Positions 3,152-33,530 of a stretch of DNA of 34,254 nt are shown here, one piece after another. The translations under genes were made by a program, and so were the position numbers. Location of the stretch: assembly GCA_028282645.1 (NCBI GenBank), contig JANQHM010000040.1:1-34254 (forward strand), read 5' to 3'. This stretch comes from Candidatus Gastranaerophilales bacterium. GTDB taxonomy: Bacteria; Cyanobacteriota; Vampirovibrionia; Gastranaerophilales; JANQFW01. The stretch's first letter is position 1, and every line of letters begins with the position of its first letter. A model generated the notes under the pieces. It did not search any database and was not told the origin of the DNA. It saw only the letters and a list, made by a program, of their open reading frames with translations.

Positions 3152-3256
3152 GGTGATGGTAATCACCTTTCTTATGTCATCGCTGTAAGCTTTTGATATA
3201 ACTTGAGTTCACTTGTAAGCATCAGTACTCAACCGACCACTACCTAAAATTGTTAG
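3152..3256 (-). repeat. Repeat B, copy 2 (between convergent genes)
   Basis: This is a near-identical inverted copy of 634-742. It contains GGTGAT (3152-3157) and ATCACC (3162-3167) followed by TTTCTT on the plus strand, so it may help end the pepD transcript. A second partner, ATCACC at 3137-3142, allows an alternative hairpin. It sits between the stops of pepD and the RND gene. Confidence 0.85.
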
Positions 3257-13638: not shown

Positions 13639-13845
13639 TTCTCAAACCCCTAAAATCTATCTTCTCTACTGAAAATATATCATGATTAATTTTAAAATTT
13701 ATTTTTATTACCCATTTTACTATTTTACTTTTACAATTGGGTATGCTTAATTGTATAATCAAGATAGTAAATAATACAAAATTAAATAGTCTGAAAAATG
13801 TTTTTAAGTTATTATAATATTGGCTAAAAAACGGGGAAATGATTG

Positions 13846-14802
13846 ATGGATAAATCATTAATAAGGCCGGAATCTCTGAAATTGCTTGAAGAATTTAAGC
13901 TATACCTGGAAGTGGAGAGAAATTTATCTGTTCACACTGCTAAAGCTTATACCGGCGATATAACAGTATTTTTAACATGGACGCAAAACAGGCTTCCGCA
14001 AGATTTTACCCATAAAGAACTTAAGAAATATCTTGCGTTTATTCAAACACAAAATTACTCTAAAACCACTGTTTCAAGAAAAATAGCAGCACTGCGCACT
14101 TTTTATAAATTTTTGTACAGAGAAAAGCTGGTATCTTCAAACCCTGCTAATAATATTAAAACACCTAAAAAAACAAAAAAATTGCCTGATTTTTTAACAG
14201 AAGAAGAAGTTGATGAAATATTGGATCACATTGATATAACTACCCCCTCAGGCTATAGAAACAGAACTATTTTTGAGGTTCTATATGCTACAGGTATACG
14301 AATTTCTGAGCTTTGCAGCCTTAATTTTGAAGATTTAAATCTGGAAAGCAATGAAATAACTGTTTTTGGTAAAGGCGGAAAAGAAAGGATTGTATTAATA
14401 AACAATAGAGCAAAGCAATACCTGGAAAAATATATTGAGATTATGCGTCGTCAAGTATGCGGAGATAGCTATTGCTCGCCTTCATCCCCTGTTTTTATAA
14501 ATAATACGGGTTTTAGGCTCCAACAAAGGAGTATAAACAGAACCCTAAACCAACTTTCCCAAAAGCTAAACCTGTCTAAAAAATTATCACCTCATGTATT
14601 TAGGCATAGTTTTGCCACCAAACTTTTGGAAAAGGGTGCTGATTTACGTATAGTTCAAGAGCTTTTAGGGCATGCAAACATAAGTAATACACAAATATAC
14701 ACGCATGTTTCTACTGAAAGATTACGCCAGACTTATATAAAAGCTCACCCAAGAGCTAAAATGAACCTCCTCGACCCAAGGGTCGAGGTATCAGCCCCAT
14801 AA
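13846..14802 (+). CDS. xerC: Tyrosine recombinase XerC/XerD
   Basis: This site-specific recombinase probably resolves chromosome dimers at dif. It is 318 residues from the ATG at 13846; a TTG three bases earlier is an alternative start. The N-terminal SAM-like DNA-binding domain covers residues about 10-95 (FKLYLEVERNLSVHTAKAYT). The catalytic residues are all present: Arg152 (ATGIRISEL), Lys176 (FGKGGKERIV), His250 and Arg253 (SPHVFRHSFATKL), His276 (LLGHANIS) and Tyr285 (IYTHVS). Normal Xer proteins end near HPRAK (residue 305). Here 13 further residues, MNLLDPRVEVSAP, and the stop codon are encoded by dispersed repeat C. XerC and XerD cannot be told apart from this sequence alone. No transposase or phage genes accompany it, which favours the housekeeping role. 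Confidence 0.93.
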   Translation: MDKSLIRPESLKLLEEFKLYLEVERNLSVHTAKAYTGDITVFLTWTQNRLPQDFTHKELKKYLAFIQTQNYSKTTVSRKIAALRTFYKFLYREKLVSSNPANNIKTPKKTKKLPDFLTEEEVDEILDHIDITTPSGYRNRTIFEVLYATGIRISELCSLNFEDLNLESNEITVFGKGGKERIVLINNRAKQYLEKYIEIMRRQVCGDSYCSPSSPVFINNTGFRLQQRSINRTLNQLSQKLNLSKKLSPHVFRHSFATKLLEKGADLRIVQELLGHANISNTQIYTHVSTERLRQTYIKAHPRAKMNLLDPRVEVSAP

Positions 14803-14857
14803 CTTTAAACGCAAAGCTTTGCTTTGCATAAGTTAGCTCGGGGTATTCTATCGAATA
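14761..14857 (+). repeat. Hairpin repeat C, copy 1 (encodes the XerC tail)
   Basis: This element of about 97 bp starts ATGAACCTCCTCGACC and ends GGTATTCTATCGAA. It is built of nested inverted repeats: TCGACCC/GGGTCGA near the left end, then CCCC..TAACTT..GCAAAG paired with CTTTGC..AAGTTA..GGGG, which would fold as one long stem-loop. Other copies are at 27791-27886 (-), 32261-32362 (-) and 33377-33417 (+, interior deleted). Its first 42 bases are translated as the end of xerC. Confidence 0.9.
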
Positions 14858-14899
14858 AACAGTGGAATTTCAAGTTAGGATAGAGGCAAATTAAACTAA

Positions 14900-18368: not shown

Positions 18369-18384
18369 AACATACTCCTCCTCC

Positions 18385-18490
18385 TATACTATTTCTAAAA
18401 TACTTTTCAGATTATTCAATCGTGTTAAACCTAATAAAGTAAACTAAACTCTGAAAAGAGTAATCTAAAATTTAATTTAGAACCTGTATA
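18385..18490 (+). repeat. MITE-like repeat, type E copy 1
   Basis: This 106-bp element has long imperfect terminal inverted repeats. The left end is TATACTATTTCTAAAATACT then TTTCAGATTATTC; the right end, read inverted, is TATACAGGTTCTAAATTAAA then TTTTAGATTACTC. The interior (GTGTTAAACCTAATAAAGTA and onward to CTCTGAAAAGAG) differs from type A but recurs at 32633 and 26801. It abuts the Shine-Dalgarno of the gene at 18099-18368. Confidence 0.85.
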
Positions 18491-26909: not shown

Positions 26910-27092
26910 TTTTTCCCATAAAAAAAATAAAAAATACAGTAGGATTGGATAAATTTATCTGATTTGTTAATAAATATTTAAAATGCAGCTTGTGTAGTAA
27001 TTAATAGTCTTAATTGCATAATCAAATTCTATAAAATAATAAAATAAATAAATATAACTTACCTGAGCGGAAGTAAATTATATTTGAAATCT

Positions 27093-27147
27093 GGTAATAC
27101 TCATCACCTTTCTTATGTCATCGCTATAAGCTTTTGATATAACCAGC
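27093..27147 (-). repeat. Repeat B, partial copy 3, next to an unoccupied repeat C target
   Basis: This contains ATCACCTTTCTTATGTCATC and TAAGCTTTTGATATAAC as in copy 2, then diverges into CCAGCTTTTATTTTTTTAAC. That junction matches both flanks of repeat C copy 3 at 32261-32362, so it appears to be the unoccupied form of the same target. It lies just beyond the queH stop. Confidence 0.75.
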
Positions 27148-27722: not shown

Positions 27723-27790
27723 TTTGTAATACCGCACTATAAGTATTCTGGTGCAAGATTAAATTTTAGATTCTCTTATGTTTATTTTAT

Positions 27791-27886
27791 TTCGATAGAA
27801 TACCCGGACCCCTGGGGCACTAACTTATGCAAAGCAAAGCTTTGCGCTTAAAGTTACGGGGATGATACCTCGTCGAGGAGGTTCAT
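27791..27886 (-). repeat. Hairpin repeat C, copy 2 (encodes the VKOR-DsbA tail)
   Basis: On the minus strand it starts ATGAACCTCCTCGACGAGG and ends GGGTATTCTATCGAA, matching copy 1 at 14761-14857 apart from a 12-base shortening of the left hairpin and an expanded GGGGTCC near the right end. The nested TAACTT/AAGTTA and GCAAAG/CTTTGC stems are kept. Its first 33 bases are the last ten codons and stop of the upstream gene. Confidence 0.9.
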
Positions 27887-29116
27887 TTGTTTTAAACTTT
27901 TTTCAACTTCTTGTTTAAGCTCTTCATAAGGCATAATTCCTTCATATTTTTTCATACCTATATAAAAAGTCGGAGTAAGCTTTATTCCCATTTTAACCCC
28001 TTTACCTGCTTCTTTTTTTAATTTTTCCAAATTACCAGGGTCGTTTATATAAGATTTTAGTTTAATAATATCAAGATTTAAACTTTTTGCAAGAATTAAC
28101 AGGTTTTCATCACTTAAATTTTTCTGATTTTTAAATAACAAGCTTACCATATCCCAATATTTTCCTTGCTCTTTTGCTGCACGTGCGTATAATGCTGCTT
28201 TGCAACTATATTTATGGCCTGTGCTTTTTACATAAGGATTACAATTTGAGCTTAATGGGAAGTCGTAATGTAAAATCATTATATTATCAAAGTCTTTAGC
28301 CAGTTTTATAAAGTATCCGTTTAATGTAGCGCAGTAAGGGCATTCAAAATCAGAATAATCTTTTATTATTAAAGCAGGTTTTTTTGAACCTAAAATGTTT
28401 CCTAAATTTTCTGTTTCTGTAATGAGTTTTATTGATGTTTTAAGTTCTTGTTCAGGCTTTAAAATCAATATGTTACTTTGGCTTGTAAATATTAATACTG
28501 CAATAGCGCAAAGAATTCCAAATATAACAAGATTTCCTAATATTTTATCTGCTAGAACACTAACAGTATCTTTTTTGAAGTTATTTAAATGAACAATCAG
28601 TTTATCGTCAATTCTGGTAACAATAAACAGGAACAGGTTTACAAAATAAGTGGCAAAACATAGAATACAAAGCTTTTTGATAACTACATAAGAAATAAAT
28701 GCTAATATTATTGATATAAGCAATGAAATAAGAGACAAAATGCATATAAAACTGGTCGGATGATTAAAAGATTTAAATAATTTAAACTTTTTAAAAGGAA
28801 ATACGCTAATTCCAAAAATTAAAGTATAAAAAAATAGTCCATAAAGGGCCAATGGAATACCTAAAAAGTGTGAAAAATTTGTTTTTGCTACACCATCGCA
28901 GTCTATATAGTCATTTACGCTGCAAAAACTTTTAGTTACAACTTCTCCAAAATTAACATCAAAGAAAATAAAAGCTAATTTTAAGCTTACTAAAAAACCT
29001 GCAATGGAAAATAAAGGAATTAAATAGCGTACAATTAACTTTTTAATGCTGTTATTCTCTGTTTGAATCGTATCAGCAGGATTATTTGCTGTTTTTTGTC
29101 TTTTTTTCTTGCCCAT
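27854..29116 (-). CDS. VKOR-DsbA fusion, disulfide-bond formation protein
   Basis: This 420-residue membrane protein combines the two halves of a periplasmic disulfide-forming system. Residues about 28-210 are a vitamin K epoxide reductase-like domain with five or more membrane helices, loop cysteines Cys65 and Cys73 (CSVNDYIDCDGVAKTNFSHF) and the quinone-proximal CxxC at Cys150/Cys153 (KKLCILCFATY). Residues about 245-410 are a thioredoxin-fold DsbA-like domain with CPYC at Cys259-262 (SDFECPYCATL) and the cis-Pro loop LTPTFYIG. VKOR linked to a thioredoxin-like domain is known in cyanobacteria and other bacteria. The last ten residues, MNLLDEVSSP, and the stop are encoded by repeat C rather than by the ancestral gene. 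The Shine-Dalgarno is weak (AAGG about 12 nt upstream). Confidence 0.93.
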   Translation of the reverse strand: MGKKKRQKTANNPADTIQTENNSIKKLIVRYLIPLFSIAGFLVSLKLAFIFFDVNFGEVVTKSFCSVNDYIDCDGVAKTNFSHFLGIPLALYGLFFYTLIFGISVFPFKKFKLFKSFNHPTSFICILSLISLLISIILAFISYVVIKKLCILCFATYFVNLFLFIVTRIDDKLIVHLNNFKKDTVSVLADKILGNLVIFGILCAIAVLIFTSQSNILILKPEQELKTSIKLITETENLGNILGSKKPALIIKDYSDFECPYCATLNGYFIKLAKDFDNIMILHYDFPLSSNCNPYVKSTGHKYSCKAALYARAAKEQGKYWDMVSLLFKNQKNLSDENLLILAKSLNLDIIKLKSYINDPGNLEKLKKEAGKGVKMGIKLTPTFYIGMKKYEGIMPYEELKQEVEKSLKQMNLLDEVSSP

Positions 29117-29220: not shown

Positions 29221-29233
29221 CTGCCAAAACACA

Positions 29234-29273
29234 CGATTGAATAATCTGAAAAGTATTTTGGAAATAGTGTATA
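29234..29273 (-). repeat. Half MITE (type E left end)
   Basis: GATTGAATAATCTGAAAAGT and TTTTGGAAATAGTGTATA match the terminal segment at 32703-32739. No right end is found nearby, so it is a solo end marking the border of the gene-free region. Confidence 0.65.
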
Positions 29274-32212: not shown

Positions 32213-32260
32213 CAGATTTGCCAGGTAATGAGCCTTTATTATTGATATAACCAGCTTTTA
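32213..32260 (+). other. Repeat-B-like flank of repeat C copy 3
   Basis: TTGATATAACCAGCTTTTATT here matches 27134-27154 and ends where repeat C copy 3 begins. The other flank, TTTTTTTAACCAGA with GCTCT, continues after 32362 and matches 27153-27173. No gene is present. Confidence 0.6.
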
Positions 32261-32632: not shown

Positions 32633-32739
32633 TATACCAGGTTCTCAATTAAATTTGAGATTTCTCTTTTCAAAGTTTAGCTTATTTTATCAGATTTAAC
32701 AGGATTGAATAATCTGAAAAGTATTTTAGAAATAGTATA
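32633..32739 (-). repeat. MITE-like repeat, type E copy 3
   Basis: This 107-bp element is the inverted counterpart of 18385-18490: TATACCAGGTTCTCAATTAA at one end and AAGTATTTTAGAAATAGTAT at the other, with a matching interior (TTATCAGATTTAACAGGATT). It ends 31 bp before the ATG of the acetyltransferase gene. Confidence 0.85.
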
Positions 32740-32770
32740 CCAGGCGCAGCAAGAAAATAAGAGGTAAAAA

Positions 32771-33376: not shown

Positions 33377-33417
33377 ATGAACCTACCTCGACCCAAGGGT
33401 CGGGGTATTCTATCGAA
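33377..33417 (+). repeat. Hairpin repeat C, copy 4 (internal deletion)
   Basis: ATGAACCTACCTCGACCCAA joins directly to GGGTCGGGGTATTCTATCGA, about 41 bp in all. The long central stem present in the other copies is missing, which fits loss of a palindrome between short direct or inverted repeats. Confidence 0.85.
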
Positions 33418-33420
33418 TAA

Positions 33421-33456
33421 AAAGAGATTAGAAAAAACTCCAATCTCTCTTTTATT
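33421..33456 (+). terminator. Rho-independent terminator after the acetyltransferase gene
   Basis: The stem AGAGATT (33423-33429) pairs with AATCTCT (33442-33448) and a TCTTTTATT tract follows. It lies about 100 bp after the GNAT stop, immediately beyond repeat C copy 4. Confidence 0.65.
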
Positions 33457-33478
33457 AATATTCAAATAAATCTTTTGC

Positions 33479-33530
33479 TTACAAGTAAACTTAACTTATA
33501 TCAAAAGCTTACAGTGATGACCCTCACCCG
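33479..33530 (+). repeat. Repeat B, partial copy 5
   Basis: TTACAAGTAAACTTAACTTA then TATCAAAAGCTTACAGTGAT matches the middle of copy 1, and GATGACCCTCACCC replaces the perfect end hairpin. It lies between the convergent acetyltransferase and small-protein genes. Confidence 0.75.

Follow-up and report, generated by a model that had tools for sequence, protein, structure and literature searches.

Repeat C, a dispersed hairpin repeat of a Candidatus Gastranaerophilales genome, inserts at the hexamer AATAAA. It is very probably a short, noncoding, nonautonomous palindromic mobile element whose placement at gene ends follows the availability of that hexamer, and the best reading of the data is that it is a small parasitic repeat kept where it is harmless, rather than a purpose-built gene-end cassette. 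The copies that drew our attention, together with the genes that two of them terminate, lie in a window of 34,254 nucleotides (contig JANQHM010000040.1), by which we mean the whole stretch of DNA that was analyzed:

13843..14802, + strand: xerC-type tyrosine recombinase gene, 319 aa; native sequence through HPRAK, then an element-derived tail
14760..14859, + strand: repeat C, long form, lacking 10 bp within hairpin 3; forms the 3' end of xerC, giving it MNLLDPRVEVSAP and TAA
14760-14762 and 14854-14859, + strand: boundaries of the xerC copy, AAT and the right target AATAAA, respectively
27786..27887, - strand: repeat C, long form, diverged, with a shortened left hairpin; forms the 3' end of the VKOR-DsbA gene, giving it MNLLDEVSSP and TAA
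27854..29116, - strand: VKOR-DsbA (thioredoxin) fusion gene, 420 aa
32257..32362, - strand: repeat C, long form, third copy in the window, intergenic
33377..33421, + strand: repeat C, short form plus one extra base, fourth copy in the window, intergenic, between convergent genes

Repeat C at the ends of xerC and the VKOR-DsbA gene

Translation confirmed the proposal of the sequence-only reading that repeat C gives both genes their C-terminal codons and stop in one frame: it terminates xerC with the tail MNLLDPRVEVSAP-stop and the VKOR-DsbA gene with MNLLDEVSSP-stop. The XerC catalytic domain had been taken to be finished before the repeat, and PF00589 indeed occupies residues 117-292 (profile positions 2-171 of 172) and is complete upstream of the junction; the VKOR and DsbA/thioredoxin domains of the fusion protein are likewise complete upstream of theirs. 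When aligned with their repeat-free orthologs from G001, the one same-genus relative in the comparison, both proteins were seen to have native ends in the relative, XerC finishing in HPRAKMQEANQTR and VKOR-DsbA in RQIKRD. Because G001 is without the repeat at either place, each in-frame junction arose from its own insertion, as had been suggested. If G001 keeps the old ends, insertion would have replaced roughly 7 residues of XerC and 4 of VKOR-DsbA. Across the order, other XerC orthologs end at HPRA or within about a dozen residues, and VKOR-DsbA orthologs stop shortly past the thioredoxin domain; in a protein search, the closest match of VKOR-DsbA was from the MAG PL23b_bin.2 (Candidatus Gastranaerophilales, JANQFW01), at 81% identity.

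Family size, forms, and spread

Collection of all copies, which had been proposed as a check, showed that the draft genome (3.1 Mb) has 46 left and 49 right ends, far beyond chance, with the best copies outside the window matching down to an E value of ~1e-38. The family has two forms, a short one of 44 bp and a long one of ~109 bp; the latter has two ~19-bp direct repeats, GACCCAAGGGTCGRGGTAT, and carries an extra 65 bp finishing in the second of them. The long form is probably the older because the few diverged cousins of repeat C in G001 and in G004, another genome of the order, contain the second hairpin, and the short form is probably a product of deletion between the direct repeats.

A scan for the right end across the order gave 46 matches in this genome and 0 to 1 in each of 240 others, where nearly all matches had two mismatches and were near the level of reversed-pattern controls, the exception being the real G004 cousin. 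The burst of repeat C is nearly confined to this species. A search of a collection of genome contigs for the exact pattern found no match, which is consistent with a species-specific family, and an Rfam search with repeat C found no match. The cousin repeat of G001, which was traced as a route to an autonomous partner, was present in three copies, all at contig ends, and its interior was not recovered.

Insertion at AATAAA

Every left end (46/46) begins with AAT (A-ATG), and AATAAA is found at almost all of the 49 right ends; outside of these bases, the flanks are merely AT-rich and unbiased. Empty sites hold a single preexisting AATAAA; filled sites consist of AAT, the element, and AATAAA and are longer by 39 bp (short form) or ~104 bp (long form). 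Several copies reside in other repeats that are also present element-free, and reconstruction of the empty sites gave matches to real sequences, most of which have AATAAA intact at the junction and no gap there. The best empty site, in a second stretch on contig C240, had 97% identity over 104 bp; the two near-identical stretches of this natural filled/empty pair, both on C240, are those at L005, about 2491-2594, and near 40460-40568 of the contig. The sequence adjoining the copy at 32257 (GGTTATATCAATAATAAAGGC) gave the same empty-site reading against a copy on C247, and one empty host lies in the window:

18397..18478, + strand: element-free version of the host repeat CTAATAAAGTAAAC; the version on contig C33 holds a short element at the same AATAAA

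Two further genes, on C192 and C55, have G001 orthologs that end AAA-TAA-G and GAA-TAA-A, respectively; here they read AAA-TGA and GAA-TGA, with the last residue unchanged. The fixed short target is accordingly found in the empty state, as AATAAA in most empty sites and in the G001 ortholog of the C55 gene, and as AATAAG at C192. At the xerC and VKOR sites, the target is taken from the repeat family, since the G001 orthologs there lack AATAAA and read AATGCA and AATTAA, respectively.

Insertions fall at gene ends because in this genome, with its GC content of 31.6%, AATAAA is frequently found over or next to a TAA stop. Insertion into an AATAAA lying over a TAA stop produces AAT-G... and a TGA stop: when TAA starts at the T of AAT, the leading G of the element restores the stop as TGA, and the protein is unchanged. 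In the register in which a codon opens with AT, the protein gains an MNLLD... tail, as is seen in xerC and VKOR-DsbA.

Genomic context and reading frame of the copies

The copies were compared with a null set of 3443 AATAAA sites, two strands included, in 610 kb of this genome, on contigs picked for carrying copies; a hexamer-based gene caller placed 526 genes there (83% coding). Gene interiors held 62% of the null sites, gene 5' ends 2.6%, and the sense 3'-terminal 30 nt 2.8%, the remainder being intergenic, antisense 3'-terminal, or at contig edges. With 27 contig-edge copies omitted, 39 copies were classified, and none lay in a gene interior or at a 5' end (0/39, versus 67% expected). Elsewhere, observed and expected numbers were close: 20 versus 19.6 between tandem genes, 9 versus 12.0 between divergent genes, 4 versus 3.3 between convergent genes, 5 versus 3.5 at sense 3' ends, and 1 versus 0.6 at antisense 3' ends. 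The context of the copies thus fits that of AATAAA sites outside gene bodies (multinomial Monte Carlo, p = 0.75); given the number of copies (39) and the simple, purpose-written gene caller, a modest 3'-end preference is still compatible with this result. The five sense gene-end copies comprised none in the long-tail frame, three in the TGA frame, and two in the MNLLD frame, versus 39, 38, and 19 null sites, respectively (p = 0.15). Selection for gene ends or for the MNLLD frame is not apparent in these data. What stands out strongly is that the repeat is absent from genes, where purifying selection would have purged insertions.

Folding of the RNA gave -42.9 kcal/mol for the long consensus (z = -5.5), -36.0 for the xerC copy (z = -5.3), and -27.8 for the VKOR copy (z = -1.9). 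The strong stem-loop of the sequence-only reading is therefore borne out as a stable fold. Its suggested action as a terminator is not: no run of T residues follows the hairpin on either strand, so such a role is unlikely, and that of a canonical intrinsic terminator was rejected. As judged from the fold and the aligned copies, the hairpin is subterminal and the ends of the element are not inverted repeats.

These results bear on two other accounts of the gene-end copies. In the first, repeat C is a mobile gene-end cassette, with insertion in the MNLLD frame selected for a benign tail, a stop, and a hairpin that protects or terminates the mRNA. The occurrence of two in-frame junctions within one window speaks for it, as does the stable fold; however, context and frame fit the AATAAA expectation, three of the five sense gene-end copies are in the tail-free TGA frame, and the majority of copies are intergenic, nine of them between divergent genes, while the missing T-run argues against termination. 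With sense 3' ends only slightly above expectation and the MNLLD frame in just 2 of 5 cases, we consider a cassette very unlikely. Within the power of 39 copies, then, no bias for gene 3' ends or frame was found, an outcome that the sequence-only reading had itself named as a refutation, and of the earlier proposal that gene-end insertions are tolerated, or selected, tolerance stands and selection does not. In the second account, repeat C would be a coding palindrome akin to the Rickettsia palindromic elements, retained in reading frames as protein. Its translation in frame in two genes fits such a role, but the consensus has stops in all six frames, no classified copy is interior to a gene, and only last codons are translated, leaving this account with hardly any credibility. 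We therefore favor the small parasitic repeat with AATAAA as its target.

How repeat C may move

On the opposite strand, where the target reads TTTATT, the element lies 3' of TTTATT, starts with CGATAGAATACCCC, forms the hairpin, and ends with GGTTCATT. It thus finishes in TTCATT, which is similar to TTTATT, and its termini around the hairpin are nonidentical; inside the element, directly 5' of the hairpin, is GAATA, complementary to TATTC at the junction. Traits such as these belong to IS200/IS605 single-strand transposition. Given the target-like 3' end, the unlike termini, the hairpin, and the complementarity of GAATA to TATTC, the mobilization of repeat C may resemble that by IS200/IS605 Y1 transposases, a likeness to which we would give a little less than an even chance. 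The traits of the IS200/IS605 and REP families have been described (PMC7290912, PMC2817692).

In the draft genomes searched, the present one being broken at repeats, no Y1 transposase (PF01797) with the same ends was found in this genome or a relative, a TnpB domain search gave none, and no RAYT gene flanked by inverted copies was found. The sole Y1 match was a Y1_Tnp-like stretch (33 bits; G000:C149:7033-7332) within a large open frame; that frame looks like a DNA methyltransferase/PglX-type protein. An IS200/IS605 origin, of the PATE or REP type, is perhaps the case, and membership in that family is not claimed.

The same element and target could instead be moved by an enzyme that duplicates AAT, either a DDE transposase that makes a 3-bp duplication or an enzyme of the IS110/serine type, with AAT as the core of the exchange; this would replace Y1 at the mobilization step only. 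From the sequence, AAT at both ends of complete copies fits either a 3-bp target duplication or an element-borne, target-like end, and such an enzyme would agree with the failure to find a Y1 or TnpB gene. Nevertheless, the bases at the very ends of the element do not form inverted repeats (GAACC... versus CGATA...), and the conserved AAA lies outside one AAT only, which indicates one-sided target recognition, as in Y1 elements. We regard an AAT-duplicating enzyme as a possible, somewhat doubtful, mover of repeat C. It can also be envisioned that AATAAA and the first base G amount to a "stop-safe" insertion rule (TAA to TGA), favored for its harmless occupation of stops, with the target set by base-pairing of GAATA with the site; we think this improbable.

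Comparison with known repeats

Repeat C is reminiscent of the PATEs and other nonautonomous elements derived from IS200/IS605 (Halanaerobium hydrogeniformans, PMC7290912), which are also short and hairpin bearing, lack true terminal inverted repeats, insert 3' of a fixed short target, and have a target-like 3' end. Unlike the case with PATEs, TnpA/TnpB was not detected for repeat C, which also has a short form with one shared hairpin and a hexamer target, TTTATT. Likewise, REP/BIME sequences mobilized by RAYTs (PMC2817692) are dispersed, mostly intergenic palindromes; in contrast, a RAYT was not found for repeat C, a GTAG-type head is absent, and the empty sites point to a strict AATAAA target.

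A precedent at gene ends comes from Coxiella burnetii, in which several functional genes have 3' ends overlapped by QMITE1 or QMITE2; in the EnhC protein of the Dugway isolate, QMITE2 supplies 33 C-terminal residues, followed by a stop, and QMITE2 is a hot spot for IS1111 (PMC5896051). The QMITEs share with repeat C their small size, their position over gene 3' ends, and the donation of C-terminal codons, but their sequence is different, and for repeat C the gene-end effect is explained by the AATAAA target, as tested against a null. Repeats that donate C-terminal codons are therefore already known; repeat C stands apart in its AATAAA target and its TAA-to-TGA rule.

Rickettsia palindromic elements lie within reading frames. 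Like repeat C, they are palindromic repeats translated in the frame of the host gene; with repeat C, however, terminal codons alone are affected, and interior insertions number 0 among the classified copies. A literature search on Gastranaerophilales found no description of such repeats.

Other repeats and an insertion sequence

Repeat C is itself a site of insertion. For an insertion sequence with the terminus CAGACTGTGTAAAAA, the bases immediately preceding each exact end (15/15) were CCAAG, CCTTG, or a close variant of them, and in almost every case this motif was the center of the repeat C hairpin:

L292-L306 (contigs C16, C55, C57, C77, C98, C144, C145, C178, C236, C239, C287, C294, C295, and C301): ends of the CAGACTGTGTAAAAA insertion sequence

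The ends lie at the center of a CCWWG-type palindrome, with an apparent CAAG/CTTG duplication. A transposase fragment gave a weak match to DDE_Tnp_1_6 (E = 0.014, below the family cutoff), and the insertion sequence is perhaps IS1182/IS1272-like, which we offer as no more than a lead; within the IS1182 family, IS1272 is known to target inverted repeats (PMC5678879).

An abundant repeat family, AAAATACTTTTCAGATTATTCAATC...CTAATAAA...CTGAAAAGAG, hosts repeat C insertions and is present in the window at 18375-18486, 32638-32749, and 29231-29271, as well as on many contigs. A further dispersed repeat, GTTATATCAAAAGCTTACAGC...AAGGTGATGACCATCACC, occurs in the window at 637-738, 3152-3253, 27087-27143, and 33476-33521.

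Implications

With nothing more than a fixed target hexamer, unrelated genes can repeatedly acquire C-terminal tails in frame or exchange one stop codon for another, which is easily misread as the work of adaptive gene-end modules. Caution is needed with such proteins, whose last ~13 residues are not to be taken as conserved or functional. For the Gastranaerophilales, repeat C is a mobile palindrome whose filled and empty sites can be cleanly compared.
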